From a virus: a stretch of 28,424 bases of DNA. Shown piece after piece: positions 1 through 18,756 of this stretch. The translations under genes and the position numbers were made by a program. The stretch is from positions 1 to 28,424 of the IMG/VR virus record IMGVR_UViG_3300033153_002137; one strand, given 5' to 3'. The notes under the pieces were generated by a model. The model was not told the DNA's origin. It worked only from the letters and a program-made list of their open reading frames with translations, and did not search any database. How positions within the stretch are numbered: position 1 is the stretch's first letter; the number at the start of each line of letters is the position of its first letter.

Positions 1-3000
1 CTGGATTATTTTCATCTTGTTTGAAATCTACCAAAAGAGTTTGAATAAATGGATTCTCTAACAGTTCCTCACTGTACTTATGTTTACCCCTTTTAATATC
101 TTCTAACTGTTTGAAAATAGAAGTCTTAGGATTGTTAAGTAAATTACTTACCATTTTGGTTGTCATACCTAAACCATCTACTTTATCTGAAAAGAAACCA
201 CTTATCAAGTAACTGAATGTCTCTTGCATTAAATTGTTTATCACAGCCTTATTAGCCCTTTTACCAGATGCTGAAGCGTACAATAATGTACCAAATATTT
301 CATTAAATCCATTTGTAGCAAAAACACTCTTCGTAGAAAGTATACGTCTAGTATATAACATGGAATTTTTTAACAACCTAGGTAACATAGTACCATCTTT
401 TACACTCTCTCCTTTAGAAGATAAGAGTCTAGGTAAATTAATCCATTTATTACTTTCTTCTACTTCCTTCATCTTAGCTAAAAACAAATTCTGTTGGGAT
501 GGATTAATACCAAATTTCTTTGTATCTATTTGAGATACTCTAACTAAATCAGAAAGTGACTGTCCGTCAGCATTGATTTTATTAAAATGATATAATACAG
601 ACATTTGCCTGATGTAATAATCTGAGTTTTTTATATCAGTAGTTGAATCAGAACGTAATCTATTTATGTAATTCATATTAAGAATAGTACTTAAAGGGAT
701 TGGTTTAAAATCCTTTTTCACTAAATCTTCAGCTGCTAAACCTGTATCTATAGCTTTCTCTGCCCAGAAACTCCATATCTGATCAAATGTTTCTTTTTCA
801 AAACTCCTTTTACCCATATTATTAAAATACTCTAAAGCATAATGTTGTAATATAGGTTGTGCTATATAATCAAAACTTACTTCACCAACTCCAGCTCTAA
901 CTAATAATTCTAAAGGATTATGAGTAGCCTCGTTAACATTTAATTTAACAATATAATTATCTGTAGGAGCATCCACGTGAGCATCTACTAACGTTGACAA
1001 CCAGGTGGTTATAAACATATCATCTTGACCACGTATTAAATCAAATTGAATGATTCCTTTTTTATTAGTCTTTAAACCTAGATTAAGAGCTGTTTTAAGA
1101 GCTATATTAGCTTGTTGTGTTAAAGCATGATGAGCATTACCTAAAGCATGTGGACCAATACCCTTACCAGAACCTATGTATAAGAATTTCATCAAATTCT
1201 GGAATCGAGGAGTACCCATCTCTAAGGCTTTCATTTCCCCACGTATACCTATAGAAGATGCTTTATTATAAAACTCAGCTTTATCTTTTAACAAACTTGT
1301 AGATTCACCAAGAGGTGTTGATGTAGCTAAATAATGCTTACTATCAGACAATACAGAAAAGAAGATATCTAACAATCGATTCTCATTAGCCTTCCTAGTG
1401 TTTTGTTCAGACAACGAACTCTTTTTAAATTCATCAAAAGGTTTAATAACCCCTTCTTTAACCAACACATCTTTCACAGATTCTAAAACAAACTTTTTCT
1501 GTACAGCTGTCATTATAGTTAACTCATTGTTTATTTCATCAATGCTATCCTCTATATAAGATTTTTCAAACTCAGCCTTATCTATAGATTCATTCAATGA
1601 TTCTATAACCTCTGTATTCTTAGATTCATTTAATTTCTTGTACAGAACTTCTAACTTATTCACAACAGTCTCTAGTTGTTGTTCTTCTGTATAATGTTCT
1701 CCTTCATCTTTATCAGCTCTAACTGTAATCTCTTTACTCTTTTTAGAATAGATAGTTAAATCACGAATTTGATTTTTTAACTTCTTACTAAAAAAGTTCG
1801 GAGTATTTTTATAAATGAGATATAATTCTTCTAATTTATCTATATACCTTTTATAAGCAGACTCATCATCCACCTTATCAGAATATTCTATTTTTGTATA
1901 ACCGTTTTTATCACTATTGTAGTTATATCTAGCGACATATAATTTATCAATGTCAAAGTCAGAACCAGTTAACTTAGTAAATTCTAAAGGTAACTGTATT
2001 ACATCACCACTGTTTTCACGTAATACTTGAACTACTTTGAGAAGAACTACTGAGTTTTGTCCCTGTGTTGGAATTCTATAACCAAGTAATTTTAATTCTT
2101 TTTTTAAGAACGCTTGTTGTTGTTTAAAAGTCAACCCTTTTGGAAGAATGTTTTTAAAGAGTCTAACAGATACTCTAACTTCCATTTCAATTACTTCAGT
2201 TCCATTCTCATTGAATACATTCCAACCAAGTTCTTTTGAAGTAGATTTTTTACTACTACCATAATCTGAAACCTGAATTAATTGGTTTCCAGGAAGATTT
2301 AAGTCAATAGTTTTCTTATTAATCATTGTGATCAAGCGTGTATACACCCAATCTTTATTCATAAAAGAGTCTATTTCTAAATAAGGTTGACCAGTATCAC
2401 TGTCAACTCCTTTAACTAGAGCTTGTCTAAAGTCATCTGATTTTCCAGAAACTTTAGCATCCATCTCTAACATTCTGATTAAAAGCTTATCATTAATACG
2501 TCCGTTTTTAATACCTAATTTAGCTTCTATATAATGTTTACCCAGATCACTTAAAGCCTCTCTAGAAGAAGTTAAAGCATTTAACAACTCCCTACCATCT
2601 TTAAATCCTTTATAGGGCTTATCAACCCTTATATCTGAGGAACCAGCTTTATACACCTGTGTACCAAACATTTGATGTGTTACATTGTGTACAGCCGTAA
2701 CAGGTTGATATCTTAAATTATCAAAGGTTTGAGTATGTACTAGAACTTCAGATAAATCACTTATTTTATCTCTTTTTTGAGGATCAACAAACATATCTGT
2801 ACCTAACATACCTCCTGCTTTAACAGCCGATGCAAATTTAAAAGCATATATAGGTTTAAGATTTGAATATTTACCTTTAGCTTCCATCCTATCTAAAACT
2901 TCCTCCATGTGGGTATCTTTGACTTGACGTCTAAATATTGTAACCATGGCCATTTTATCATAGATCAACAAATCAATATTATTATGATTATGATGTCCTA

Positions 3001-6000
3001 TATAAACTGTCTTAAAAGGATTAAATATAACATTAGATGCTTCAACCTCTTGTGCAGGACTTAATTCTTTATCTGACTGTAATAAGTTATAAGCTTTTTC
3101 TTGTGCATCTCCCCACAATCCTAATCTATTGGACATAGATTTATACATAGCTGGACTTACTAACATAGTACCGTCTGTAGGATCTGTCTTGTTATAACTT
3201 TCCCTAATTGTTTTATTTGCTAAGAAAGCTGCTAAACGATCAGCTTCTTCTTCTGTTTCTCCTTTTTCTAATAAATATTCTTTATGTATTTTCTTTTGAT
3301 AAGTATACATGGTCTCTATATGCTCACTCTCAAAAATAGGATCATTGAAAGTAGCTACAGCAAACCCATCCCCTTCATCATTATATTCAGAGTTAAATTT
3401 ATCACCTGTTGATCCAGCTCCAAACCATCTCTTATATAAATCATCATACACATCTATTTGACTAGTCTTATTTCTTTTAAATATAGCAGGATCTGCCAAA
3501 AATATTTTTTCTGATTCAAATACAGACATTTGCATATTGACTAAATATAAAGACAATATATGTAAAATACTGTGAGTATAATCATTTACATCTTCTGCAT
3601 ATCGTTCATCATTCTTCCTATCTATTAAACTCATAGGTAAAAGAATATTACTTAAACCTTGTTCATCTTGAACTATAACATTAATAGAAGACGCATGATC
3701 AATTTCTTCTTGAAGTCTCTCATTTAAAACTTCTGATATTGCCACTCTTGCTTGGTCTTTATTTAAAGTCAAAGACAAACCTTTAAAATGAATTAAATTA
3801 TAGGCATTACCTAAATTAACATTAATACCAGCTTCAGTCTCAATATAATGATAATTTTTAACCATATCACCTTTAACTTTCATTAAAGATTCATAAGCTT
3901 CTTTTTTATTTTCATCTGAAGCCTTATCATATTCTTTTTTAAGAGTGTTATATAAAGTTCTTACTTTTTTAGCTTCCCTTATCCTATTTACTTCATCTTG
4001 ATAGTACCCATAAAACATATCGAGCACTTCATCTGTAAAAACAACTTTACTACCATCTGAACTTTCAATAGCATCCTTTATTACAGGAGCCCCTTTCATC
4101 ATACTGTAAGTACCCCTGTTAGACATTACAGGCATAGGTAAGATATTTAAATCACTCGTGATAGCTCCTAACCTCATTAAATAATCTTGAGCTCTTGTTA
4201 TATCAGTATAACTAGACCCTTTATCAGTTACTTTTTTAGTCCTTCTCCTTTTAATAGTACTTAAAGTCAGTAACTCAAAACTATCCCTAAACTCTTGACT
4301 AGCAGGTGAAAAATTACCATCCTCATCCCTTTCAGAAGCTCTAGATAAAATTCTAGAATTACCATTATTTATCATCCCTAACTTTTCCTCAGCCCATTCT
4401 GGATCACGTTGTATTTTATTAGATTCTTCTGTAAGTAAATTATGTGAAGAATAACCAAAATATTTATTACCTCCAGGCCCTAAATGCATATCACTCGCTT
4501 CTTCTGGATGTGCTTTAGCATAAGCTTTACTTAAATCTGTGGCTATGGGATTTTTTATAAGATGGTCATCAAAGATTTCCACTACATATAACTTCTCTAA
4601 TTCTAAAAGCATGTCTTTCATACGACCTGCTGAATCTTCATTAGAAAATTTATCTAAAAGATAAGTATTTAAAGTTGTAACATCCACATGTATATTAATT
4701 TGACTAAGCATATTAAGAGCTGTTAGTTTTGCTTGATGCAAATCTCCTGTAGTGATAGTACCATCTGCCTCATGGGTAGCTATAACATCTATTAAATCTC
4801 TAGAACGTTTCTGTAAATCTTCAAAAGCTTTTGTATTAATCTCACGTTCTATAATCAATCCTCTTTTACCTTGTTTAGATGTAGTAGTAGATAGATCTTC
4901 ATTAATATTCAACATTTCTCCCCACTTCAAAGCATTACCTCTAGATAATTCGTAATAACTAGAATCTTCTAAAAAGAAAGTAATACCTCTAGAACTACTT
5001 TGTTGATATATGAAGTTAATATAATTATGTTTATGCCTTCTAAAAGTTGTTAGAAACTGTGACTTCATTATATAACTCTCTTTTCTAAGAGAGTTTACCA
5101 ATTCTTTATATGGTCCTATCTGGTACTCATCTGCTATACTCTCTATTTCATCTAACATATCCTCTATATTAGTATGAAAATGTATATCAAACAATAACCT
5201 ATGCCACATAGCTGTAAAATCTACATACTTTCTCAAACCTGTTGTTTCATCTCTAACATTAACAAGTTCTCCTTGCTCATTAAATTTAGTTTCATACAAA
5301 GTAGAAATCATAAACTTAACACTTGATAAAGCATTTTCTTTAAGATCTATCTGATAGGAATTCTTATCATAATTATCTGAATTACCTATTACTTCTTCTT
5401 CATCAATAGCATCTAAGGATTCTACATTAGAATCTTTTCTACGCCTTACTCCAAGAAAGGACATGTAATCTTCCATAAAATCCCTAAAGATTGGAAAAGT
5501 ACCATATGTACCGTCTTCTAACTTTTCACCTAAAACTTCTTTAAATAAGTCATGTACTCTAATTGCTTTATCCACTTTAGCCTCATCTGTAGACCCCTCT
5601 ATTACTTTAGCTGAGGATTCTATTACTGCTTCTAAATAATCAATTAGTTTACCCCATACATTTTTATTTAATTTCTTAATACTATTTATATCTGTACCTT
5701 TTATTTTATTCAAGGTAAACATCTTAGTAGTTAACAGTTTAGTAATGTTTAACATCGACTTTCTGTTAGCTATAGTATTAAATTCAATCCCCCTATATAT
5801 CCTAGCCCTGGCTAAATAATCACCTTCAAGGTTCCGTATGTTTTCCTTACGTACCCTAGATACACTAAAACGTCCTTTATTTATTTGAGTAAATAAATAA
5901 TTAACATCTCCTTCTCTTAATCTAGATCTACCCGTAAACCAATTCTTGATATGTTGTAGTATTCTAGAAAACCATCTCTTTATGTTACTTTGTAATTTTT

Positions 6001-9000
6001 TCTCTTCTTGCAATAATACAAACTCTCTAAACTCTTCAGCTAATTTCTCTTCAACTTGTCTATCCGTATACTTCTCTTCAGACATCTTATACATCACTCT
6101 AGCCTTCTTATAAAGAGCAGTACGTTCTTCTAAAGTTAAATACCCCATACTAACTCTGTGAAAAGCCTCGTGATATAAAGTACCTACCTCAGCTGCTTCG
6201 TATAAACGTATGGCAGAATGACTATATAAAGCAAAATTAGAACGTCCTTGATAAACTAGATCTTCCAATTCTTTAACAAGTTCTACTTTATCTCCTTTTA
6301 TATTTACTCTATCTAAAAGCCACCCTAATTCTTTTTTAAGATCCTGAACTTCAAAGTCAGGTCTCTCACTAAAAGGTCTAGGTAAAGGACCGCCTTTATC
6401 TTCTAGATCATCTAATATAGCATCTATGTCAGGAACCTCCTCCTGTTTCTCTTCTTCTTTAACTGGTTCTTTTGTATCAGGTTTACCTTCTTCTTCTTCA
6501 TTCAAAGCAGCTTCATCCTCAGGTATTTCATAATAACCATCATCCGGTCTCTCTAAAGGTTTAGTTTTAGACTCTTCTTTTTCAGCCTCTGTTTGAAGAT
6601 TTTCTCTATCCTGTTTATTCTCAATATCTTTACTTTTATCCTCTACTGTAAGGTCTCTAGTTAAGGTAACAGCCCTGGTATTATCAGTATGTAAATAAGC
6701 TTTACCTGTCTTATCAGAACTTAAATTAAGATCTAAAGTAGGAGCATGGAATATTAAACCATTGTCTCCTTGTTCAGCATCTGTAGTTAAGAATCCATTC
6801 TTTAATACAAATTCAGAATAAGTTTCTTTACCATCTCTCTCAATTGGATTCTTACCCTTTCCTTTTTCACCTATCCTAAATTTACGACCTTTCAAAAAGT
6901 CCCCGTTTAATTCTAAGTTAAGCATTTTATGATGTAGATGACTAGCATATGTTTTATGCTTCATCATCCATGCTATAAAGATAGGTTCGAACTTTCTTAT
7001 ATCATCTATATCTAACAGATTTATCCTCGTAGAATCTTTTCCAAATACTAGATAAGTTGTATTCTTAGCCTTATCTACTTCTAAAAATAATTTTTTATTT
7101 TCTAGAACAGTCTTGTGTTGATCAGTAAGATTAGTTAACTTATACCTACTATCATTTACATCTGTTCGTTTCTTACCACTTACAACAAGTAGATCTATAA
7201 GTTCTCCTACACTTAAATTCCATACTCTAGTATCCCCTTTATAGAATTTACTCTTGTGTCTCCCTACTATACCTTTACCTTGTAATTCATCTTTTAGAGT
7301 CTTTTTTACATAAACTCCTTTTCTCTTATTCCAAACATATTCAGATCTCCCCATTATAGCAAAAGCATCAAACAATAATTTTGCATGTTCTGCACTAACT
7401 GTAGAGTTATTTAATTTTAAACCATAAGCATCTCCATTTATAGTACGTTTAGTTATCAAATATGTACCACCTGGAGAACCAAAACCACGAGTGTTTCGTT
7501 CAGTTGTTTTTTCTGAAGTAAACAAGTCTCCTTTATAGTAACGACCTTTAATGTTTGGACTACCCTTTACAATACCTAATTTAATAGTATCACCTTTCTT
7601 AAAACCTAATTCAACCAAAGGATTTCTTTTACGTTCATCAACAGGTAAACTCTTATCTATAGTTCTTGGAGCTCCCCTACCAACTTTTAAACTAGTTGTA
7701 AAAACCTCTTTTATACTAGGGTCTAAAATAGCAGACAAAATCTGAGTTCTTAATTTACGAGATTGACTTTTTACAGACATTCTGTAATCTAATTCGGCTT
7801 TTTTACCTTTGTTTTTTACAGTTCGTGGAATTTTTATTCCATTATAACCACTTTCATGTAGCCATAAATCTTTAGTGTAAGACTTACCATCTATAACAAC
7901 TCTAACTGATATTTTAAGATTATCTACTAAATCATAATAACCTGTTCCAGTATTAGTTTTAAGAATATTAGCAACATCCCCTAAAGTTAATCCACTTGGT
8001 GTTTTAAGTTTTCTAAGTAATGCTAATTGTGATTTAAATTTCTCCAGAGGATTTTTAAGGTTCTTTTTTGCAAGAACGTCCCCTTCCTCTTCTTTTTTCT
8101 TATTGCTTAAATCCTTTAGTTTATTTTCTGCTGACTTCAAATTCTTCCTTAGAGTAACTAAATGTTCTTCTATAGTATCCTTTGTTATATAATAATAAGC
8201 TCTTGATTTAGCAAACGATGTTTTTGGATCAGACAATATCTGATTAAGTTTCTCATTTCTAATTTCAATTATTCTAGAATCGTTTTCAGCTACATTACTA
8301 TAAGACAGTTTAGATAATGGCTGTAATGGTCCACTATCCTCTTCAGTTTCCCTAGCATGAGTAATTGTAGTACCAGCAGCCTCTTCTTCTGCTGTAGACA
8401 AACCTTCAAATGACTCTTCTAAATTTAAAGCATTAGATACCTTACCTAACAATTCAATGTCTTGACCAGACTTTTTAATAGGGTCACCTATAGGCACCCC
8501 AGTCTTACTAATAGGTTGTATTGTATATATATCATCTGATGGTTGAGAACCTTTTGTTTTAATATCTATACCATCTATTTTTGCTAAAACCTCATTACCA
8601 TCTTTATCTTTAAACCTTACTATATCATCTAATTCAGGTTCTCCATCCTCTTTAGGATCTTCTCCTGGTTCCCTTTCAGGTTCTTTTTGAATATATTTAC
8701 CTTCCCGAAAACGTTTCATCTCCTCTTCCATGGTAGCAATAGAAGCTTCAAGAGTATCTATCTCCCCACGTGCTGTCAAATATTCAGAAATTCTAGGATC
8801 TACCGGATCCCCATTTTCATCTTTTGTAGTTAATATCTTACCTTCATCCTTTTTTCTATCTGCCTTACTATAATCTTTTATTGATTTTTTATGTTCTGTT
8901 TTAGCCTGCTCTAACTTATATTCTTCTGAAGCTAAGACAAATTTATCCATAGCTTTTTCCCAAGCTCCCGCATTAGGATCATCTTTAGTTATTTCAACCT

Positions 9001-10789
9001 TATCCCTAAAACGTTTAACATTCTTTTCTATAGCTTCTACAGCATGTTTTGTTCTAAAAGCTGTTTTACCACTAGATGTTAAACCACCCTCTTTTTCATC
9101 TGCAAATAATTCTTTAATATCAATATTTTCCAGACGTTCTTTAGACCCTTTTAAAGCCTCTCTATTACTATCCAAGAGGTATTGATTTAAAGTCATGTTC
9201 CTAGTAAATGTAGCAAGATCTTCTTTTTTTACTTTAGGATTCTTAAAACCTTCGTTTTGAAACCTGTCATAATTCTTAGACACTTCCTTAACACTCTTAA
9301 TAAGTTTATCAGCAGCTTTAGGATTCTCTGATATAAAACCCTTACCCTCTTCATTAATACCATGTGTTATCAAAGTATCATCATTTGGGTTTTTCATAGC
9401 TTCAATAAAATCAATAATGTGTTGTTCAACACCCCTTTCTTTAGAGGATAAAGCCAAAGAACCTAAAGCATTATTTAAAGCATTTTCTATTTTAATAGGA
9501 TCACCGCTCTTCAAAGCAGCAGTATATATTTGGTAAGCTTGATTATAAGAAGGTCCAAACTTTTTAACTTCTTTAACAGCTGCTGAATTCTTTTGTTGAA
9601 TCATTTTGGCATTAAGACCTGCAAAACCAACTTGCATTGTACCAGCTCCTAAAGCTCCCATTACAGCAGATGTCCATAACTCACCATCTCCATAATTATC
9701 CTTTAGTGAATCTAAAAAAGAATATTTAAAATTAGGATCATCTCCATGTCTAGCTAATACTTTAGATTGTTCATTAACTAAATACTGATAGATTTCTTCA
9801 CCACCTTCTCCAACCATATCCTTAACAATACGAGCTGCCTTTTTTCCACTACTTTTAAAAGCATCAGCTCCTAAAGCTTTCATCACTCCTCTACTAGTAT
9901 TAGTAGTACTAGGTCCTAATCCACCTAATTTATTTAACAACAAATACTGTGGGATGTCTTGCATCAACATTAACCATTGTTTGTTATAAGTATTAGAAGC
10001 ACCTAAAGACGCTCGTTTCTTAGCATCCTCTTCACTCATACCTAATCTCTTAGCTTCTTGATATAACTCATCCCAAACACCAGAGGCTTCCATTACATTC
10101 TCCATATGTCTAGATACAGTCGCTTGACCAATCCCTCTAGCCATCCAACTAGCGGTTTTACCCATTTTCTGACCTATATTAAGAGCCTTACCTAACATAG
10201 ATACTCCACGAACTGCACCAGCTGCTGGTATCATCAAAGATATAGTAGAAGCTACAGATGGAGCATTTTTCATCCACCAACTCCATGAACCAGGATCAAA
10301 ATCAGGAGCGTTAGGGCTAACATAAACAGGAGTTGCCTCCCTAGTCCAAGTTTTTAAATCTTTACCTATATCACTAAGCCAATTCCCCCACTCTTGTTCA
10401 GTATTATTTACCAAATCTGCATATTGTGGTAAATCTCCCAAATAACCAATTCCTTCTAAAGTCCCACCAACTATTTCTCCTACAAGGGCTTGATTTAAAA
10501 AACTAACAAATTGTCCAGCAGCAGTTTGCTCTCTAGATAATTGTTCTTGCATAAAATCAGGACCTAAATTTGGATGATATCCAGCATCCCCTAAAGTTCT
10601 AATTGCAGCTTTAGGTACACTACCTGTATAAACATTTACAGGACTACCAATAGTAGTCCTATACCTAAGCTTTTCAGCCACAATCTCATCTCTTGTTAGT
10701 CCAGTAGTAGGATCTAAATCCTCAGTTCCGAGTGTTTTAGATTTACCTATTTCCGTTGCTCCTTGTAAAGCAGTTAAATCAACTCCCAT
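1..10789 (-). CDS. Giant crAss-like virion RNA polymerase polyprotein (3' end outside window)
   Basis: At least 3,596 codons from ATG at 10789, open to the left edge. Residues about 165-390 are helical with hydrophobic stretches, as in phage ejection proteins; about 470-700 are charged and coiled-coil-like; about 1416-1466 form an acidic linker; HEAFH at 1540-1544 and AEEF at 1584-1587 form a gluzincin-like zinc site. The C-terminal part is the polymerase: an FGTQVYK stretch that may belong to the first double-psi barrel, RIPTQ at 2905-2909, and DFDID at 2944-2948, the magnesium-binding loop of the second barrel. From memory, the phi14:2 enzyme gp66 is about 2,180 residues with the same loop, so roughly 1,500 N-terminal residues look extra here. 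In the family the enzyme is packaged in the virion and transcribes early genes after entry. It is the last gene of the block, 15 bases after its neighbour. Polymerase identity is very firm; N-terminal functions are inferred. Confidence 0.94.
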   Translation of the reverse strand, partial: MGVDLTALQGATEIGKSKTLGTEDLDPTTGLTRDEIVAEKLRYRTTIGSPVNVYTGSVPKAAIRTLGDAGYHPNLGPDFMQEQLSREQTAAGQFVSFLNQALVGEIVGGTLEGIGYLGDLPQYADLVNNTEQEWGNWLSDIGKDLKTWTREATPVYVSPNAPDFDPGSWSWWMKNAPSVASTISLMIPAAGAVRGVSMLGKALNIGQKMGKTASWMARGIGQATVSRHMENVMEASGVWDELYQEAKRLGMSEEDAKKRASLGASNTYNKQWLMLMQDIPQYLLLNKLGGLGPSTTNTSRGVMKALGADAFKSSGKKAARIVKDMVGEGGEEIYQYLVNEQSKVLARHGDDPNFKYSFLDSLKDNYGDGELWTSAVMGALGAGTMQVGFAGLNAKMIQQKNSAAVKEVKKFGPSYNQAYQIYTAALKSGDPIKIENALNNALGSLALSSKERGVEQHIIDFIEAMKNPNDDTLITHGINEEGKGFISENPKAADKLIKSVKEVSKNYDRFQNEGFKNPKVKKEDLATFTRNMTLNQYLLDSNREALKGSKERLENIDIKELFADEKEGGLTSSGKTAFRTKHAVEAIEKNVKRFRDKVEITKDDPNAGAWEKAMDKFVLASEEYKLEQAKTEHKKSIKDYSKADRKKDEGKILTTKDENGDPVDPRISEYLTARGEIDTLEASIATMEEEMKRFREGKYIQKEPEREPGEDPKEDGEPELDDIVRFKDKDGNEVLAKIDGIDIKTKGSQPSDDIYTIQPISKTGVPIGDPIKKSGQDIELLGKVSNALNLEESFEGLSTAEEEAAGTTITHARETEEDSGPLQPLSKLSYSNVAENDSRIIEIRNEKLNQILSDPKTSFAKSRAYYYITKDTIEEHLVTLRKNLKSAENKLKDLSNKKKEEEGDVLAKKNLKNPLEKFKSQLALLRKLKTPSGLTLGDVANILKTNTGTGYYDLVDNLKISVRVVIDGKSYTKDLWLHESGYNGIKIPRTVKNKGKKAELDYRMSVKSQSRKLRTQILSAILDPSIKEVFTTSLKVGRGAPRTIDKSLPVDERKRNPLVELGFKKGDTIKLGIVKGSPNIKGRYYKGDLFTSEKTTERNTRGFGSPGGTYLITKRTINGDAYGLKLNNSTVSAEHAKLLFDAFAIMGRSEYVWNKRKGVYVKKTLKDELQGKGIVGRHKSKFYKGDTRVWNLSVGELIDLLVVSGKKRTDVNDSRYKLTNLTDQHKTVLENKKLFLEVDKAKNTTYLVFGKDSTRINLLDIDDIRKFEPIFIAWMMKHKTYASHLHHKMLNLELNGDFLKGRKFRIGEKGKGKNPIERDGKETYSEFVLKNGFLTTDAEQGDNGLIFHAPTLDLNLSSDKTGKAYLHTDNTRAVTLTRDLTVEDKSKDIENKQDRENLQTEAEKEESKTKPLERPDDGYYEIPEDEAALNEEEEGKPDTKEPVKEEEKQEEVPDIDAILDDLEDKGGPLPRPFSERPDFEVQDLKKELGWLLDRVNIKGDKVELVKELEDLVYQGRSNFALYSHSAIRLYEAAEVGTLYHEAFHRVSMGYLTLEERTALYKKARVMYKMSEEKYTDRQVEEKLAEEFREFVLLQEEKKLQSNIKRWFSRILQHIKNWFTGRSRLREGDVNYLFTQINKGRFSVSRVRKENIRNLEGDYLARARIYRGIEFNTIANRKSMLNITKLLTTKMFTLNKIKGTDINSIKKLNKNVWGKLIDYLEAVIESSAKVIEGSTDEAKVDKAIRVHDLFKEVLGEKLEDGTYGTFPIFRDFMEDYMSFLGVRRRKDSNVESLDAIDEEEVIGNSDNYDKNSYQIDLKENALSSVKFMISTLYETKFNEQGELVNVRDETTGLRKYVDFTAMWHRLLFDIHFHTNIEDMLDEIESIADEYQIGPYKELVNSLRKESYIMKSQFLTTFRRHKHNYINFIYQQSSSRGITFFLEDSSYYELSRGNALKWGEMLNINEDLSTTTSKQGKRGLIIEREINTKAFEDLQKRSRDLIDVIATHEADGTITTGDLHQAKLTALNMLSQINIHVDVTTLNTYLLDKFSNEDSAGRMKDMLLELEKLYVVEIFDDHLIKNPIATDLSKAYAKAHPEEASDMHLGPGGNKYFGYSSHNLLTEESNKIQRDPEWAEEKLGMINNGNSRILSRASERDEDGNFSPASQEFRDSFELLTLSTIKRRRTKKVTDKGSSYTDITRAQDYLMRLGAITSDLNILPMPVMSNRGTYSMMKGAPVIKDAIESSDGSKVVFTDEVLDMFYGYYQDEVNRIREAKKVRTLYNTLKKEYDKASDENKKEAYESLMKVKGDMVKNYHYIETEAGINVNLGNAYNLIHFKGLSLTLNKDQARVAISEVLNERLQEEIDHASSINVIVQDEQGLSNILLPMSLIDRKNDERYAEDVNDYTHSILHILSLYLVNMQMSVFESEKIFLADPAIFKRNKTSQIDVYDDLYKRWFGAGSTGDKFNSEYNDEGDGFAVATFNDPIFESEHIETMYTYQKKIHKEYLLEKGETEEEADRLAAFLANKTIRESYNKTDPTDGTMLVSPAMYKSMSNRLGLWGDAQEKAYNLLQSDKELSPAQEVEASNVIFNPFKTVYIGHHNHNNIDLLIYDKMAMVTIFRRQVKDTHMEEVLDRMEAKGKYSNLKPIYAFKFASAVKAGGMLGTDMFVDPQKRDKISDLSEVLVHTQTFDNLRYQPVTAVHNVTHQMFGTQVYKAGSSDIRVDKPYKGFKDGRELLNALTSSREALSDLGKHYIEAKLGIKNGRINDKLLIRMLEMDAKVSGKSDDFRQALVKGVDSDTGQPYLEIDSFMNKDWVYTRLITMINKKTIDLNLPGNQLIQVSDYGSSKKSTSKELGWNVFNENGTEVIEMEVRVSVRLFKNILPKGLTFKQQQAFLKKELKLLGYRIPTQGQNSVVLLKVVQVLRENSGDVIQLPLEFTKLTGSDFDIDKLYVARYNYNSDKNGYTKIEYSDKVDDESAYKRYIDKLEELYLIYKNTPNFFSKKLKNQIRDLTIYSKKSKEITVRADKDEGEHYTEEQQLETVVNKLEVLYKKLNESKNTEVIESLNESIDKAEFEKSYIEDSIDEINNELTIMTAVQKKFVLESVKDVLVKEGVIKPFDEFKKSSLSEQNTRKANENRLLDIFFSVLSDSKHYLATSTPLGESTSLLKDKAEFYNKASSIGIRGEMKALEMGTPRFQNLMKFLYIGSGKGIGPHALGNAHHALTQQANIALKTALNLGLKTNKKGIIQFDLIRGQDDMFITTWLSTLVDAHVDAPTDNYIVKLNVNEATHNPLELLVRAGVGEVSFDYIAQPILQHYALEYFNNMGKRSFEKETFDQIWSFWAEKAIDTGLAAEDLVKKDFKPIPLSTILNMNYINRLRSDSTTDIKNSDYYIRQMSVLYHFNKINADGQSLSDLVRVSQIDTKKFGINPSQQNLFLAKMKEVEESNKWINLPRLLSSKGESVKDGTMLPRLLKNSMLYTRRILSTKSVFATNGFNEIFGTLLYASASGKRANKAVINNLMQETFSYLISGFFSDKVDGLGMTTKMVSNLLNNPKTSIFKQLEDIKRGKHKYSEELLENPFIQTLLVDFKQDENNP
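1946..1960 (-). other. RNA polymerase catalytic loop DFDID
   Basis: These five codons encode Asp-Phe-Asp-Ile-Asp (residues 2944-2948 of the giant protein) in the context LTGSDFDIDKLYV. This DxDxD form is the metal-chelating active-site loop of the double-psi-barrel RNA polymerases of crAss-like phages and YonO-like relatives. All three aspartates are present, so the enzyme is predicted to be active. The upstream RIPTQGQNS motif (residues 2905-2913, about nt 2051-2077) sits at the expected distance. Confidence 0.93.
6158..6172 (-). other. Zincin-like metallopeptidase motif HEAFH
   Basis: The codons encode His-Glu-Ala-Phe-His (residues 1540-1544) in the context GTLYHEAFHRVSMG. A downstream AEEF (residues 1584-1587) could supply the third, glutamate, zinc ligand about 40 residues after the second histidine, as in gluzincins. 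HExxH alone occurs by chance, but the helical context, the preceding aromatic residue and the downstream glutamates make a real metallopeptidase domain likely. The substrate is unknown. Confidence 0.72.
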
Positions 10790-10804: not shown

Positions 10805-12955
10805 TTAATAATTTCTTTTAAGTCCCAAAAAATCTGATTCTAATTCAACCAAATCTCCGACTAATTTATCCAGATTAGCAGATACTGCTACTGGTGTAGG
10901 GGCGTCTCTATAATAAGTATTATAAACACCGTTCTCATATTTAACTTCAAATTTTTCTTGTCCTACATTTCTCCCAAAAATAAAAGTACCATCTTCTGTA
11001 ACACTTTCAACACGACTTAATAAATCATAAGTTGTATTTTGATTTTTACCTCGTCCATTTTCCTCAACGTCACTTCTTATTCTAATTGATCCAACTGAAT
11101 GAGCTCCTTCAAAATCCTCCTGTCTTGTTAGATCATATATCAAAGCTCCTATTTGAGATTTTTGAGTAGCTTGTAATTGTACTTCTACAGTTTTTCTATT
11201 ACCCCCCTCTTTTGGTTCAACTACATAATAAACACTTACTGAACCATCTGAATTAGGTATTTCTTTAATATTATCTAAAGTTACTAAATTATTAGAATTT
11301 TTTAAAGCAGTATTTATCTTCTTTCGATTACCATAATCATTACTATAAGTAGCAAAATTTGTTGGAGTTGAAGTTAAAGGATCTGTTATATTAGAAACTA
11401 TAGCAGATTCATAAGGTTTTTCATTAGAGTCTAAATATTGATAAAAAGGATGTTCTCCTGTACCTGTAACTTTTTTCTGACTTAAACCTATCCTATCGGT
11501 TTGAGTTACACTAGACTTTCTTTCAGTAAAAGTAGTTTTTAAATTTCTGTTTTGTTTTCTTTTAATTTGAGCCCATTCACTTTGAAATTCTGCAAAGATT
11601 TCTTCTGTATCTGGATCTCCAAAATCAAAAACTTTTGTAATAGCTTCCCCTGATCTTTTAAGAGATTTTATAATACTTTTACCTGGACCTGTTAAAGCTC
11701 CACCAAGATCTATATCTTCCTTAAAATCTTCTTTACTCCAATTTAATTCAAAAAATTCATCATACTCTTCTTTTTCACTTTCAGTAGTATAATCATCTAA
11801 CATTTTAATAGCTTCAACTTCTGTAATACCTGTTTGAATTAACTTAGGTAAATAATCTTTTTTTAAATCAGCTTTTAATGGTTCATATTCTTTAGAAACA
11901 TCATTGATAATAGTATCCCATTCATCTTGTAATGATTCATACTCATTTTTAACTTTTGTTACCAATTTTTCTTGATCTTCTATACTACCTTCATCATACT
12001 CATTAGGTCTTTTTTTCATTTCATCTAAAAGAGTAGTTGCTGAATCTTGAATTACTTTAGCTTCTTCTAATTCTTTTTCAGTCTCCCTTTTTACTTGACG
12101 ACTCTTTTCAGTATCAGCTGCTGGAGTAATTCTTATTGGAACAGGTGGAACATATGTACCTGAACCAGAACCACTAGGATATCTTTGACCTATTTGATTC
12201 CTACGTATCCATTGTTGTGCATAATCATTCATTATTTCACTAGCTATAGCAACATCTCCTAATTCATCTTCTTCAGGATGTGCCATACGCCAGAGTTTTA
12301 TTTCATCTTGCCCACTAGGAGTACTAGCATATTCATTAGCATCTCTACCGACTATAAGATCTATATCATCTTGTGTTCTACCACTAATCATATAACCTTC
12401 ATCATCTCTACGTATATTACGGTTTGTAGTAGCCATCCCTTTAAAATACCTAAATAATTCATCTTCTTTATTTAAATATGCTCCAGGTTGATAATCGTAT
12501 ATTTCACCAACTCCACCCCAGTTAGGATCATTAGCAGGATCTGTATCTAAAGCAGGATTGTACATACGTTTAGCCCTTAAATCTTGTTTGTATTTTTGAG
12601 CTAATGTGTATTTATCATAATTTTCATTGAGTTGTTTAATAACTCCTGGTTTAGCCTTAGTTCTAATTTTTTGATTTAAAGAACGTATAACAAAAGGATC
12701 TGAAAAATCAGAACCTGCAAATTCATCCCTGATATCATACATATCTTTTACAAGTTGATCTCGTATATCAGCTTGTTTACCAGGAATAGCATTGATATTT
12801 TCAGCATTAGCAAGACTTTGATCAAAAGCTGCAGCTCCTTTATCATACCTTTCTTGTTTCATAGCTCCCGCTTGAACCATTTGTTCAAATGGAATAGGAA
12901 CATATGTATTCATAAATTGAGCCGCTATAGGCTTTTCATATCTATTTGTTGCCAT
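10805..12955 (-). CDS. Putative virion cargo/ejection protein (716 aa)
   Basis: This 716-residue protein lies between the muzzle-side genes and the RNA polymerase, where crAss-like phages encode proteins carried inside the capsid or tail and released with the DNA. The N-terminus (MATNRYEKPIAAQFMNTYVP) is of a kind I associate with crAss-like proteins at this position; that is recollection. The first 140 residues look helical, about 285-400 are strongly charged and coiled-coil-like (many E, K and D), and the C-terminal third looks beta-rich. There is no signal peptide or clear membrane segment. The ATG shares one base with the stop of the upstream gene (TAATG). An AAGGGGGG run just before it is part of that gene's Gly-Gly codons and may act as a ribosome site only by chance. 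No catalytic motif was recognised. Confidence 0.6.
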   Translation of the reverse strand: MATNRYEKPIAAQFMNTYVPIPFEQMVQAGAMKQERYDKGAAAFDQSLANAENINAIPGKQADIRDQLVKDMYDIRDEFAGSDFSDPFVIRSLNQKIRTKAKPGVIKQLNENYDKYTLAQKYKQDLRAKRMYNPALDTDPANDPNWGGVGEIYDYQPGAYLNKEDELFRYFKGMATTNRNIRRDDEGYMISGRTQDDIDLIVGRDANEYASTPSGQDEIKLWRMAHPEEDELGDVAIASEIMNDYAQQWIRRNQIGQRYPSGSGSGTYVPPVPIRITPAADTEKSRQVKRETEKELEEAKVIQDSATTLLDEMKKRPNEYDEGSIEDQEKLVTKVKNEYESLQDEWDTIINDVSKEYEPLKADLKKDYLPKLIQTGITEVEAIKMLDDYTTESEKEEYDEFFELNWSKEDFKEDIDLGGALTGPGKSIIKSLKRSGEAITKVFDFGDPDTEEIFAEFQSEWAQIKRKQNRNLKTTFTERKSSVTQTDRIGLSQKKVTGTGEHPFYQYLDSNEKPYESAIVSNITDPLTSTPTNFATYSNDYGNRKKINTALKNSNNLVTLDNIKEIPNSDGSVSVYYVVEPKEGGNRKTVEVQLQATQKSQIGALIYDLTRQEDFEGAHSVGSIRIRSDVEENGRGKNQNTTYDLLSRVESVTEDGTFIFGRNVGQEKFEVKYENGVYNTYYRDAPTPVAVSANLDKLVGDLVELESDFLGLKRNY

Positions 12956-13950
12956 TAGTTTAACCCCCCTTTTTGTCTAATTTGTTGTAATAATGCCATC
13001 AATTCTGGTTGAAATTGAGATGTTCCAAACATATCTGGATATATCTTAGCCAACATAGCATCATGTTCTTTTTGATTACCCATTAATTGCTGAGTTTGAC
13101 TATATTTTGAAGCATCCTCCATTGATTGACCTAAAAATGCATTCCTAGCAGCTTTATTTCTATCATTCATATCTTTAACACCAAGATTAATAGCAGCTTC
13201 TTGTTGCCCAAGTTGTAATTGTTGTTGACCAAATTGGTTATAAGCACCTGATACATCTCTTCTACGACCTATTTCATTCTGTAAATCCTGATTAATAGCA
13301 CCACTTGTTATATTACCACGTTGTCTAGTACCTTCAGCACTAATAACTTGTGATCTAGCAAACTGTGCTCCTCCACTTGCAGACCCTAATCTAGTTTGAT
13401 TACGTCTAGCTATATTTTCACCAACTGTAGTTTGAGCCATTTGAGCACTTGTATCTACATTTCTAGATTCAGATAAAGCTCCCATAGCTTGTCCCATGTA
13501 TGGATTCTTCTTATATCGATTCTGATAATCAGAAGCTTTTAAAGTATCTGCTGGAAGTAAACCTTTGACAGCATTATATCCCATAGGTAAGAATTGAGCA
13601 GCTTGTTCCCAATCTGGTTTATTAATTTGGTCAGATAAATTTTGGTTACGTTCTGAAGAAGATGTAACATCTTGTAATGGTGGGGCCTTAAAACCTAAAG
13701 AACTACCCATCTGAGAAAGGAAATTTCCAGCTCCCAAACCACTTAACATACCAGCCCCTGGTTCAGTAACATTACTAACCATATCAGTTAATCCTGTAAA
13801 CATACCTCCACCAATCATTTTAGGAGATTTTACTTTCCCACCTTTTTTAAATTTCTTTAAACTTTCTTGCTCGTCATATATAGCACCTAACTGTCTTTCA
13901 AGTTTCGCTATCATTAACCTAGCTGAGTTCTTTTCAGTCATTGTTGCCAT
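12955..13950 (-). CDS. Putative internal virion/ejection protein, Gln/Asn-rich (331 aa)
   Basis: The protein begins with a short charged helix and a lysine/glycine segment (KKFKKGGKVKSPK, then GGGMF at about residues 35-52), followed by a small-residue-rich stretch. From about residue 150 it becomes long, helical and rich in Gln, Asn, Ala and Arg. This composition resembles DNA-ejection proteins of podoviruses (T7 gp14 or P22 gp7/gp20 type) in character only; I do not claim homology. It starts one base after the stop of the upstream gene and its stop overlaps the next ATG, so it is probably translated in a coupled way with both neighbours. A role as virion cargo is inferred from position between muzzle and RNA polymerase genes. 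Confidence 0.55.
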   Translation of the reverse strand: MATMTEKNSARLMIAKLERQLGAIYDEQESLKKFKKGGKVKSPKMIGGGMFTGLTDMVSNVTEPGAGMLSGLGAGNFLSQMGSSLGFKAPPLQDVTSSSERNQNLSDQINKPDWEQAAQFLPMGYNAVKGLLPADTLKASDYQNRYKKNPYMGQAMGALSESRNVDTSAQMAQTTVGENIARRNQTRLGSASGGAQFARSQVISAEGTRQRGNITSGAINQDLQNEIGRRRDVSGAYNQFGQQQLQLGQQEAAINLGVKDMNDRNKAARNAFLGQSMEDASKYSQTQQLMGNQKEHDAMLAKIYPDMFGTSQFQPELMALLQQIRQKGGLN

Positions 13951-13951
13951 A

Positions 13952-14761
13952 TTAACTTAGTATTTTTTTATATTTATCAATCTGTTTTTTGATTTTTTCT
14001 GCTTCCTGAGCAGCTGTCTTACCAGAACTTAATATAACTCTATCACTGTATACTTCAGTACCTGGTTCTAAATTCATTGGTACCCCACCTTGAGCATGTG
14101 TTGGACCATCTACTTGACCAATTTGACCTTGTGGAGTTCTAAATACCTCTTCCTTTTCTAATTCAACATTAGGAGACTCTGCCATACCACCATATGGAAA
14201 AGTAGTTCCAAATGGAGTAGCGTATGTACTTCCAGTTTGTCCTTCTGTGATAGCCTCATTCTCTGCTTTTAATGCATACCGTTCTTGCATATGAGCTGCT
14301 TGTTTCTGATGAACTTTGTTGAATATACCCTTTACTATACTTATACCCGCAGTTATAAGCCCACCTATTGGATATTTTGGTACTTCCCCACCATAGGGTC
14401 TTTTTAAAGGACCTACTCCAGTATTTGTTGGATTTTGATTAAATCGTTTTATTGCAGGAGGATTAAGATCATATAATCCTGGACCAAAAGCATTAGCACT
14501 AACAGTATCTGTTGCAGCAACCCCTTGGTTACGATTTTTAATATTATTTATAGCACTATAGTATTCATTTACATTACCCATAGTTTCAGGTTTATTAGGA
14601 TTATAACCTAAAGCTTTCCATAAGTTATCACCTTGTAACATACTACCTGTACTATCATAAGCATTTTTCAATTGATCTTTATAATCATAAAAAGTATTAA
14701 CTGCCTTTGTATATGTTTTATCTCCTACTTTTCCACCTTGTGGATATTTTTTTGTTCTCAT
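13952..14761 (-). CDS. Putative crAss-like cargo protein with repeated GG motifs (269 aa)
   Basis: This 269-residue protein directly follows the muzzle gene, the position of a packaged cargo protein in crAss001-type genomes (from memory). A short motif recurs: YPQGG (6-10), YGG (123-125), YPIGG (130-134), FPYGG (188-192) and HAQGG (222-226). The last lies in a conserved-looking block with THAQGGVPMNLEPGTEVYSD. Residues 135-150 form an amphipathic helix and the C-terminus is a charged helix rich in Lys. No enzyme motif is visible. The ATG at 14761 lies two bases after the muzzle stop. A structural or internal virion role is inferred from position and composition. Confidence 0.6.
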   Translation of the reverse strand: MRTKKYPQGGKVGDKTYTKAVNTFYDYKDQLKNAYDSTGSMLQGDNLWKALGYNPNKPETMGNVNEYYSAINNIKNRNQGVAATDTVSANAFGPGLYDLNPPAIKRFNQNPTNTGVGPLKRPYGGEVPKYPIGGLITAGISIVKGIFNKVHQKQAAHMQERYALKAENEAITEGQTGSTYATPFGTTFPYGGMAESPNVELEKEEVFRTPQGQIGQVDGPTHAQGGVPMNLEPGTEVYSDRVILSSGKTAAQEAEKIKKQIDKYKKILS

Positions 14762-14763
14762 AA

Positions 14764-17700
14764 TTATCTATGTGAAAGTCTATAATTCGTTTTAATAAAT
14801 GGACATGAAAATTTATAATTACCATCATCATTATCATAAGTAAAATCAACAATTAAATAATTATCTCTCATACGTGCCTTAAATAATTGTGTATCGTCTA
14901 AATTAATCAGATTGAATATATCAGAATTTGTATTAACATCTTTATCAACAACATCTCTAGGTATAGTCATTTTCCAAACACGTTCTTTCCTTACTATATT
15001 AGTATCAGGAGTTAACGTAATCCAATCTGTGTTTTGATAATCATTATAAGCTCTAAACTCAGTAAATGTTTTATCAAATATATTAATCCCTGTTGAATTT
15101 ACAGTAGTGCTTATATAAGATATATTATCAAACACTTTATTATAAATATATTTATCATTAACCATGAATTTAATAGTAGCATTTTCTAACACGTTGTATA
15201 AATTACTTCTACCAACACTTAAACTATCATGTAACCAAGCATTAGTTTCCATAGTTTTAACTGATAAAAACCTATCATTATATAATGTAATATAATGTTG
15301 CACGGGATAACTATAGAATGTAGAAAATGAATCTAACACTTCATTATATGCAATAGTTTCAGGACTTGTTTTAACAATAGTAAAAATAGCTTCATTATAT
15401 TTATTGTCATATACAGAAACTATGCCATCTCCTTCAGTAAATGAATTTCTAAACCATGAATCCATACCTTTAATTTTTGATAAAGGTGTTTCATTACCTG
15501 TAAATTGATATAAGGTTTTTTCATTATCATAAAGCCAATAAATACTATTAGAAGAATTACACATACCAAATTTATGCATATTACCAACTGTAGTAGACAT
15601 ATAATCAAATCTATCTAATACATCTCCAGTACCTAACACTAAAGCTCCAGGATTATTATCCTGTATTAAAGCCCTTTGATTTACAGATACCGTACCAAAA
15701 GCATGATCTTGAAAATATAAAAGTTGATCTTTAAATACATGTAAATTATTTATAGAACCATATCGTGCATCAACATCTATATATTCATTAACTCCAAATC
15801 TTGTCCATGAATCTAAAGCTTCTCCATTAATTTTAACATTAGATGCTTTGATTCTAGTATCATATGATTCGATACTATTAAAATCAAAAGGAGTAGGATA
15901 ATATACATTAGTAGTAATCTCTTGAGAAAAGACAGTATTGTATTGATATAAATCTCCTTCTTGATTATACTCCCTATCAAATCCAGCTGTTACTTCATGT
16001 AAGCCATTATATTCTTGCATCAATTCATAAAAATTTATATCTTGAACCATACTATCGTGTGGATCATGTCTTAGATCTAAATTTATACTAGTTTCAACTG
16101 GAAAATAAACAGCCTCATGTAATGAATCATGATCATTACCAGGATCTGTATAATAAGCTTTGGTTAAATCCCAAACAAGTGACATATAATCAAAGTAACT
16201 AATAAAAGTATCTCCATTATAAGCAACAATATTAGTATTTATAGTATCTTGTTTCTTACTAACCGGTATATAAGAACTATTTTTACGAGCTTCATGACTA
16301 TGACCCCCATAATGACTACCGTATAAATTACGTCTATATTTTATAACAGGCCAATCAAATCCAGCTGGTGCCCAAGCAGTCCATGTAGCATTATTAGGAG
16401 CTATAACTAATGAAGTACCTCCATATGCTCCTTCACTACCACTATAATTTCTATACGGTACAGAATTAATATATTGTATTTTCTCATCTACTGAAACTAA
16501 TGATAAATCATCAATATCAGATCTATCACTAACTGCTATAGAAGCTCTATTAGAATATATTCCTTGTGCTTTAACTCTTTGATAACTATTTGCAGAACCA
16601 AGCCCACCTGTTCGGTCTGTAAGTACAGTAAAATATCCATTATATTCTAGAGCATCTCCTGCTTGTAAAACAATATTTCTATTAAAATTTACTTCAGGAG
16701 ATAAAAATCTAATAAGTCCATCTGTAAAAATTGGAAATATAGATCCATACATTTGTGTTGGTACACGTACCGAACTTTCTAAAGTTATAGAACCAACAAT
16801 CCCATGAGCTAATATAGTTCTGTTATTTCCTTCTCTTTTAGAACGAACTACTCTAAATGAATTAACCCCTGTTGGAAAACTATTAATTATTTCTACAGAA
16901 GGATATAATGCCGTTCCTTTAGATCCACCGTTATAATGATAAAAAGCAGTTGTTACATCTATATCATTTAACATCCTTAAATCATTCAGCCATTTAACAT
17001 AAGACCATCTACCTTTTTCATCCTCGAATTGTACTCCAACTCGATACATTTCATCTACTTGCCAGCTTCTTTTTTCCCCTGACATCCAAGGACTAGCATA
17101 ATTATTATAACTAGTAGAAGTAGCTGTTGTATGTATTTCATTGGTATTACCTGTATCTATGTCAAAAACTTCTTCAACAAATGATATTTTAAAATTCAAA
17201 CCTTCTGCTCCAAGAGTACTACCATCTGATTGAAATTTATATCTAAGCCCTGCAGTTGTATCATTATTTAAATCATTATATTTATTTATACAATCTGCGG
17301 TTTCTGGTATTGACCAATCATTTCCACTACAGTTAACACCATCAATCCAATATGTTTCTCCATTATCCCAAGTGATAATACCTGAACCAGTAATAGTAGT
17401 ACTTGTATTACTAACTATAGTATCATTGATATTATCTGAAAGATTACGAATAACATAACCTGCTAATTCATTTGTACTCCATGTTTTTGTACTATCTGTT
17501 AATACATTAGATGTTCCTCCAGTATGAGTACCAAAATTATAACCTAAATCAAAACGTTCCCAATCTCCTAAAACAGCTGGTTCTTGTTTACCGGATGTAT
17601 TTCCAGTACTATTATATAATTGATAATAACTACCATCTTCTTCATATACTTCTGATCTACCAATAACATCAAATCTATAAGTTCTAGTATCAAAAGCACT

Positions 17701-18756
17701 TACATCAAAATATTCCTCTTTTATATTAGCTGCAAAAAGAATATTATTCTTTGATTCTAAATCTTCTGCTTTAAACAAAGTAGTTCCAATTACAGCAAAC
17801 TCCTCTAATGTATATTCCCCTAGATTAGTACCAATATCTACAAACGTAAAAACTCCACCTTCTTGTTCAATGTTAAGTTCTCCTGCTATTCGTATAGTAG
17901 GGTTAGCATTATACTCACTGTAATGTATTGCAACAATTCTACACCTATTAAAATAAGTACCAGAAGTATTATCAATACTTAAAACCATACCTTTACCTGA
18001 ATTTTCAGTTGGTAAAGCTCCTTCATAATCTCCAGAATCAGTTCCAAAATCACTTGTTATAGTTAAGTGATACAAACCACTTAGATTAGAAAAAGTTGTT
18101 TCACTGCCATGTAATTCATACAGTTGATAAGCATATTGTATTTTTCCAACTGGTATATTCCCACTAATTATATTCTCTAATTCTGGTGCGATTAAATCTA
18201 CATTGGATAAAAATTCAAATCTATCTGTAGTTAAATAACTATTAGAAGCACTTTTGATTAAACCATCTGTAGTTAAATAACCTGCTACGTTAGCATATCT
18301 TATATTATTATAATCATCAACCCAATAAATCTTTTTAACTTCTTCATTCTCATATCTACCTAAAGCTTTTATTTTGTTACCTAAACAAAACATAAGACCA
18401 CCATCATACAATATATATTTAGTAACAGTCTCAGCATCTGTATCTATAACAAACTTTAAAATAGCATCTCCTTGACCATCCTCTGAGGGTGTACTTGTTG
18501 AATTATTAGTAACAAAAACAAACAATTCATCTCTAATAAAAGCATGTCCATTATAATAAGCATCTCCTAAACCTTGTATAGTAAAATCTAAAAAGGTTAC
18601 GTTACCGTTTATATTTTCAAGACTAGCACTAGTACCACCTTTATCAGTAACTAATCTAAAATTATAAGCTTCTAAATAAGATCCTTCTGGTTGTACAGAC
18701 TTATCAAAATCTTGTATCATACCTTTATTAAATGTATTTACTATCTCTTGTCCCAT
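14764..18756 (-). CDS. crAss-like tail muzzle / stabilisation protein (1,330 aa)
   Basis: This large, mostly beta-structured protein has the N-terminal pattern NTFNKGMIQDFDKSVQPEG, which I recognise from crAss-like proteins annotated as stabilisation or muzzle protein (crAss001 gp44 by recollection), distantly like P22 gp10 tail needle-hub proteins. In crAss001 the muzzle closes the distal tail opening and gates DNA and cargo release. The C-terminus (VDFTYDN, then FIKTNYRLSHR) is an intact conserved-looking ending. Residues about 409-472 look like an inserted module, described separately. The gene lies between a ring-type protein and the putative cargo genes, as expected. The start is ATG, one base after the upstream stop, without a Shine-Dalgarno. 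The tail-component call is solid; the muzzle label rests on motif memory and synteny. Confidence 0.82.
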   Translation of the reverse strand: MGQEIVNTFNKGMIQDFDKSVQPEGSYLEAYNFRLVTDKGGTSASLENINGNVTFLDFTIQGLGDAYYNGHAFIRDELFVFVTNNSTSTPSEDGQGDAILKFVIDTDAETVTKYILYDGGLMFCLGNKIKALGRYENEEVKKIYWVDDYNNIRYANVAGYLTTDGLIKSASNSYLTTDRFEFLSNVDLIAPELENIISGNIPVGKIQYAYQLYELHGSETTFSNLSGLYHLTITSDFGTDSGDYEGALPTENSGKGMVLSIDNTSGTYFNRCRIVAIHYSEYNANPTIRIAGELNIEQEGGVFTFVDIGTNLGEYTLEEFAVIGTTLFKAEDLESKNNILFAANIKEEYFDVSAFDTRTYRFDVIGRSEVYEEDGSYYQLYNSTGNTSGKQEPAVLGDWERFDLGYNFGTHTGGTSNVLTDSTKTWSTNELAGYVIRNLSDNINDTIVSNTSTTITGSGIITWDNGETYWIDGVNCSGNDWSIPETADCINKYNDLNNDTTAGLRYKFQSDGSTLGAEGLNFKISFVEEVFDIDTGNTNEIHTTATSTSYNNYASPWMSGEKRSWQVDEMYRVGVQFEDEKGRWSYVKWLNDLRMLNDIDVTTAFYHYNGGSKGTALYPSVEIINSFPTGVNSFRVVRSKREGNNRTILAHGIVGSITLESSVRVPTQMYGSIFPIFTDGLIRFLSPEVNFNRNIVLQAGDALEYNGYFTVLTDRTGGLGSANSYQRVKAQGIYSNRASIAVSDRSDIDDLSLVSVDEKIQYINSVPYRNYSGSEGAYGGTSLVIAPNNATWTAWAPAGFDWPVIKYRRNLYGSHYGGHSHEARKNSSYIPVSKKQDTINTNIVAYNGDTFISYFDYMSLVWDLTKAYYTDPGNDHDSLHEAVYFPVETSINLDLRHDPHDSMVQDINFYELMQEYNGLHEVTAGFDREYNQEGDLYQYNTVFSQEITTNVYYPTPFDFNSIESYDTRIKASNVKINGEALDSWTRFGVNEYIDVDARYGSINNLHVFKDQLLYFQDHAFGTVSVNQRALIQDNNPGALVLGTGDVLDRFDYMSTTVGNMHKFGMCNSSNSIYWLYDNEKTLYQFTGNETPLSKIKGMDSWFRNSFTEGDGIVSVYDNKYNEAIFTIVKTSPETIAYNEVLDSFSTFYSYPVQHYITLYNDRFLSVKTMETNAWLHDSLSVGRSNLYNVLENATIKFMVNDKYIYNKVFDNISYISTTVNSTGINIFDKTFTEFRAYNDYQNTDWITLTPDTNIVRKERVWKMTIPRDVVDKDVNTNSDIFNLINLDDTQLFKARMRDNYLIVDFTYDNDDGNYKFSCPFIKTNYRLSHR
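17341..17532 (-). other. Inserted adhesin-like beta module within the muzzle protein
   Basis: This segment encodes muzzle residues about 409-472. It has the pattern GGTSNVLTDSTKTW, then ELAGYVIRNLSD, TSTTITG and WDNGETYWI. Similar Thr/Ser-rich modules recur in unrelated tail and surface proteins of environmental phages, in my recollection. It interrupts otherwise muzzle-like sequence, suggesting an exchangeable surface-exposed domain. The boundaries are approximate. Confidence 0.5.

Follow-up and report, generated by a model that had tools for sequence, protein, structure and literature searches.

Among the phages of the crAss-like group, what leads a virion RNA polymerase (RNAP) to be preceded, in a single chain, by some 1,600 further residues? 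The question is raised by a linear IMG/VR fragment of 28,424 bases (record IMGVR_UViG_3300033153_002137), the whole of which is referred to here as the window. Its minus strand carries a giant open reading frame (ORF) at 2..10789, in which no stop codon occurs between the ATG at 10789 and the contig end at position 2, where the frame runs off. The 3,596 residues contain no cysteine, an absence with a probability of about 2e-8 at the rate found in the other genes of the same strand (4.9 per 1,000). As judged by orthology, this ORF joins two crassviral virion proteins in one chain, U (residues ~1-1680) and then R, the polymerase (residues ~1680-3596). In relatives R is followed by a third protein, C (g065/gp49 family); the end of R and the C gene lie outside the contig of the window. 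Where relatives encode U, R and C separately, the nearly cysteine-free proteins carry a single cysteine at each end that faces a partner, and the explanation that we find probable is that disulfides join these ends, which would let U, R and C be threaded as a single train into the host; the U-R chain of the window would be the peptide-bonded form of that train.

Two virion proteins in one chain

The R part (2..5752, minus strand), whose C-terminal end is missing, belongs by homology to the catalytic RNAP family of phi14:2 gp66 (PDB 6VR4). In a phmmer search of the PDB the sole match at E<=1 was the virion RNAP of phi14:2, 6vr4_A (E 1.5e-30), whose DFDID loop lined up with that of the window, and homology to the T7-like single-subunit polymerases of the N4 type was not found in that search. 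The DFDID of the window (1946..1960, residues 2944-2948) is the DxDxD catalytic loop expected of crassviral virion RNAPs. When the last ~1,950 residues, together with five relatives, were compared by hhalign with 16 Steigviridae polymerases, the alignment extended over 1,873 columns (E 6e-138), beginning at about residue 108 of gp66. On this alignment R is a crassviral RNA polymerase of normal length that lacks only its end, and its orthology suggests that it is packaged in the virion and active as a polymerase. A first-pass annotation of this DNA had placed the loop at residue 2944 of a frame open for more than 3,596 residues, had given the phi14:2 loop as lying near residue 1361 of about 2,180, and had taken this to mean that about 1,580 residues precede a normal-length polymerase. 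All of this was borne out: gp66 has 2,180 residues with DFDID at 1361, an offset of 1,583 from the loop of the window.

The U part (5750..10789, minus strand) is the ortholog of phi14:2 g067, crAss001 gp47 and p-crAssphage gp45. It matches the g067/gp47 profile of Steigviridae with a probability of 100% (E 2e-49, 1,095 columns) and the gp45 group of Intestiviridae at E 7e-34 (555 columns) by hhalign, and the orthology is also backed by tblastn; against the polymerase profile the probability was 3%, with no match. The homology to the U family runs along the N-terminal ~1,100 residues, and U lies directly before R in the block. Residues 60-460 (9410..10612, minus strand), which match stand-alone U proteins with E values down to 1e-61 in blastp, form a domain that is conserved in the alignment and predicted to be all-helical by an AlphaFold2 model (mean predicted local distance difference test (pLDDT) 79). 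Further on are an acidic linker (6398..6577, minus strand; residues 1405-1464, net charge -19) and a zincin-like region (5870..6322, minus strand; residues 1490-1640) with the motif HEAFH (6158..6172, minus strand; residues 1540-1544). In 23 relatives the first histidine, the glutamate and a distal glutamate of this region are invariant and the second histidine is nearly so, giving HExxH plus a third ligand. The same motif is found in crAss001 gp47, 185 residues before its end. Structure searches of the PDB gave no significant match for the N-terminal domain or, with Foldseek, for the zincin-like region (model pLDDT 78.5); hence no fold is claimed, and "protease" is used of U at the level of a motif. 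The giant ORF as a whole had no Pfam match and one sub-threshold PHROGs match (E 0.085).

The helices, acidic linker and protease motif of the extra part had therefore been described correctly, together with its virion-type character. The idea of a special added region has to be given up: the extra part is, by these alignments, not new but the ortholog of a separate upstream virion protein. Residues 1-1500 do align to known crAss-like polymerase chains in Suoliviridae, the outcome that had been named beforehand as refuting the idea, but not in phi14:2. Seven complete Suoliviridae genomes have the same U-R ORF, of 4,328-4,946 residues: cr4_1 (KNV51_gp26, 4,491 residues), cr50_1, cr118_1, cr55_1, cr10_1, cr52_1 and cr109_1. 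These ORFs share with the window the fusion, the gene order (muzzle, cargo genes, U-R, C), the DFDID loop and the zincin motif; identity to the window is about 26% over the tblastn match, and cr4_1, cr52_1 and cr109_1 need TAG to be read as sense, whereas the window does not. Their annotations vary: some are hypothetical protein, others DNA helicase, DprA-like or nuclear-pore-like. The labels DNA helicase, nuclear pore complex protein-like and DprA-like, which the U-R ORFs of cr50_1, cr118_1, cr52_1, cr56_1, cr109_1 and cr113_1 carry, are probable misannotations.

The contig of the window is a fragment, and the long frame could in principle have arisen from an assembly error or a frameshift joining two genes, as had been considered before. 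The same unbroken frame is present in more than 50 related IMG/VR loci as well as in GenBank complete genomes, which excludes this explanation and a chance origin alike. In the RNAP tree the window clusters with loci L031-L034, all fused where the start is visible, and the homologous frames of its closest relatives reach a stop at 4,158-4,483 residues. The U-R fusion is thus neither an artefact nor unprecedented, but ordinary for its phage family. In crAss-like phages RNAP genes of up to ~6,000 residues have been described (PMC10136315), and the crassviral transcription block is known to consist of several large multidomain proteins (PMC7886860).

Other crassviruses divide the same series differently. 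In phi14:2, gp66 aligns to R and g067 to U, but g067, gp66 and g065 are three separate proteins and g067 has no HExxH. The orthologs of U, R and C in crAss001 (gp47, gp50 and gp49), of which gp47 has the zincin motif, are likewise three proteins, unlike those of the window, with U on the opposite strand and a single cysteine at the facing ends; all three were identified in virions by mass spectrometry (PMC10172136). In p-crAssphage U (gp45, annotated as fused to a zincin protease) is followed by R (gp44) as in the window, but the two are cut apart (..SCM / MSC..) and it is R and C that are fused.

Cysteines mark the chain boundaries

The distribution of cysteine in these proteins follows the cuts. 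The single cysteine of phi14:2 g067 (1,797 residues) is its last residue (..NTIC), gp66 carries one at position 3 and another as its penultimate residue (MACK..ECK), and g065 has one at position 3 (MSCK..); crAss001 gp47 (2,341 residues) has one, three from the end, while gp50 has Cys5 and Cys2404 and gp49 has Cys5 at the facing ends. Three IMG/VR scans yielded 186 loci, of which 144 were both non-redundant and readable in their RNAP ORF; about 160 loci were compared, with start codons called by a rule blind to cysteine. Labels were assigned to the loci by BLAST propagation, and those of U and C are confused here and there, perhaps since HExxH regions occur in C proteins as well; the boundary statistics are independent of the division between U and C. 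Across these relatives the U-R-C series is divided into genes at varying positions, and its proteins contain next to no cysteine.

Cysteine is found on both sides of 177 of the 186 gene junctions, within a short tail at the chain end, and every cysteine-bearing end has exactly one (180/180 on each side), compared with 1.05% of interior 12-mers that contain cysteine. In a first count, U/R splits had cysteine at the U end in 53/55 cases and at the R start in 55/55, and R/C splits at the R end in 98/101 and at the C start in 88/91; starts of fused U-R chains (2/48) and C ends (2/82) had almost none. The R-end cysteine lies at most 9 residues from the end in 98/101 chains and never in the next 31 positions. 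In the other genes of the loci cysteine was found at 13% of C-terminal and 7% of N-terminal ends.

The presence of a partner is what separates the two states. All 113 R ends with a downstream partner have the cysteine and none of the 32 without one does; two apparent misfits proved to have a partner that runs off the contig, starting MSCTLED (L109) or MACRLDV (L190). Similarly the R start carries cysteine in 71/71 U/R splits and in 0/55 fusions, a count that accepts a later ATG for L013 and L016 and leaves aside L080 and L098, where the split falls inside U and cysteine stands on both sides of that cut. In L081, L083 and L091 the cut falls within the RNAP, ~280 residues ahead of DFDID, and both facing chains once more have a cysteine; a small ORF of ~160 residues lies within the cut in L081 (9322-16885) and L083 (9340-14341). 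The displaced C gene of L126 still starts MSCK, and the end cysteines are kept in crAss001 and DAC15, where U is not adjacent to R. Fused junctions and the outer ends of the series are without cysteine, and the triple U-R-C fusions of L061 (5,636 residues), L075 (5,639) and L078 (5,472) have none at all. On a tree of 161 RNAP cores, a quick LG+G4 reconstruction of modest power, the independent contrasts between split and fused states all pointed in the same direction (6:0 and 6-7:0).

For the nine exceptions there are explanations. Starts were miscalled in L013 and L016, where MSC occurs downstream; the breaks in L142, L213 and L185 (which has two) occur in overlapping frames, close to A-rich runs in two cases, and are read as frameshifts; and in L113, L182 and L156 a single cysteine lies 18-32 residues from the end. 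A break of the U-R frame at ambiguous bases in L020 (G002), near 15822-15845, has no flanking cysteine and is a sequence artefact. The order is odd in L176 (1150-12889), where the RNAP sits in a chain with the start MSSCPNI, as is typical of C, and the chain after it begins MACKYVY.

One cysteine per partner-facing end is thus the rule across the relatives, and for the missing R end and C gene of the window it serves as a prediction, namely a cysteine in roughly the final 11 residues of the chain and a next gene beginning M-x(0-5)-C.

A proposed disulfide-coupled train and its alternatives

U has its cysteine only at the end, C only at the start, and R has one at either end, which makes U-R-C the simplest pairing; the cut and fused states behave as interchangeable, as would be expected if the function lies in a continuous chain. 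We propose that facing cysteines are linked by a disulfide, which could arise in the virion or the periplasm and would make U, R and C one physically continuous polymer. This would be threaded N-end first through the tail channel of <50 Å, with U at the front, R and then C drawn in after it, and the DNA behind. The reducing cytosol would open the disulfides, after which the chains would fold and R would start early transcription. A gene fusion such as that of the window would be the peptide-bond equivalent of the link, which the zincin might, speculatively, later cut apart, and the avoidance of all other cysteines would prevent wrong bonds on the way. In crAss001 the cargo proteins gp47, gp49 and gp50 must pass constrictions of <50 Å partly unfolded, gp45 is expected to exit N-end first, and the tail barrel of the virion contains disulfides (PMC10172136).

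A precedent for the absence of cysteine is the virion RNAP of N4 (Schitoviridae), also a giant, ejected and cysteine-free polymerase with an HExxH domain (PMC12633501), although it is of the T7 type with another domain order, and is one chain without end cysteines. Polymerases of this kind lack cysteine, and it has been argued that they must do so to traverse the tail and the periplasm (PMC3715699, PMC3915230, PMC2784036). The three ejected N4 proteins gp50, gp51 and gp52 (3,500, 644 and 150 residues; L217) have no cysteine. Most other N4 virion proteins checked contain it, and the major head protein is also without. We infer that crassviruses share this avoidance and keep one cysteine only where two chains must join. 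That they couple ejected proteins of 150-280 kDa through one cysteine per terminus into a covalent train, of which fusions are the permanent version, seems to us likely, if by a hair less so than the explanation of the locus given at the outset.

The main rival is that the terminal cysteines bind metal or dock subunits non-covalently in a complex of the RNAP in the host, fusion making them unnecessary. Cysteines at protein ends can be metal ligands, and only chains with partners carry them here. One cysteine per end (180/180), however, means that each junction offers two ligands, fewer than a typical zinc site needs; the tails are short, low-complexity and rich in lysine or acidic residues, with no conserved histidine seen near them; and the cysteine tracks splits at non-homologous positions, where a pre-formed metal site is unlikely. 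We regard this alternative as rather unlikely. Less credible still is the view of the first-pass annotation, a one-chain machine that its zincin would process once inside the host, setting the polymerase free. In fused relatives, as in crAss001 gp47, the HExxH and distal glutamate are conserved shortly ahead of the U/R junction, and the N4 enzyme also has an HExxH (PMC12633501), but phi14:2 g067 has none, the zincin sits in U even in split phages, where no cut is needed, and the evidence is a conserved motif in a region for which the PDB search gave no fold match.

It is highly improbable that the pattern itself stems from start-codon choice, overlapping gene ends or relatedness of the sample. 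Starts were indeed called by rule and the sequences are related; nevertheless the rule ignores cysteine, GenBank-annotated starts agree with it (MACK, MSCK, MSKRC, MAKKC, MSCG), C-terminal ends need no start call, and the pattern holds in non-adjacent genes and in phylogenetically independent pairs. Non-adjacent genes and the terminal cysteine codons, TGT and TGC in background ratio, likewise rule out nucleotide overlap or constraints on codons as the source of the cysteines. No evidence of an intein or trans-splicing turned up, no search having been aimed at either.

The boundary pattern is an observation, whereas the disulfide between chains is likely on the strength of that sequence pattern. 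Several points weigh against it. In the crAss001 study, where samples were run both with and without reduction, nothing is reported on cargo disulfides (PMC10172136). Some R chains have interior cysteines, and in three U proteins the only cysteine is 18-32 residues from the end, not within 12. Packaging takes place in the reducing cytosol, which makes the moment of bond formation hard to place, and R, with a cysteine at both ends, could close on itself instead. The window, moreover, displays just the fused, cysteine-free half of the rule, the R end and the C gene being absent from it.

The fused ORF alone is of a known type; the chain-joining scheme behind it was not found described. No mention of terminal cysteines was met in the crassviral literature, in a search that reached few subscription papers and had the phi14:2 RNAP study outside it. 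Crassviruses are the most abundant viruses of the human gut, and to our knowledge no other virus couples ejected proteins end to end through terminal cysteines; the covalent reading would, if true, be categorically new. A real bond would explain how crassviruses get several huge proteins past a narrow tail in fixed order and in equal copy number. It also predicts a gp47-gp50-gp49 species of ~690 kDa in crAss001 virions that falls apart on reduction, into chains of 262, 277 and 154 kDa. The cysteine rule would provide a test, from sequence only, of which proteins travel as one chain, and could help to place the real beginnings and ends of chains in crassviral genomes whose annotation is poor.

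Neighbouring genes of the window

Upstream of U-R and in the same direction the window has the usual crassviral order. A 716-residue protein (10805..12955, minus strand), which by position and synteny takes the place of the cargo protein C2, is followed by a protein of 331 residues in the cargo region (12955..13950, minus strand) and a virion-type protein of 269 residues (13952..14761, minus strand; phrog_15413 E 1.8e-11, phrog_36695 E 7.5e-6). None of the three contains cysteine. Next is a muzzle-type virion protein in the position of crAss001 gp44 (14764..18756, minus strand; phrog_28748 E 1.4e-141).

Farther along the minus strand, amid tail-fibre-like genes, are a holin (23027-23455; phrog_3427, Pfam GTA_holin_3TM) and an endolysin (24174-24674; phrog_465). 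Two look-alike pairs were also seen on this strand, small beta-rich proteins at 20901-21299 and 25355-25765 and large fibre-like proteins at 21306-23027 and 25765-28344, the latter two having a common C-terminal match to phrog_12121 that is weak in one of them.
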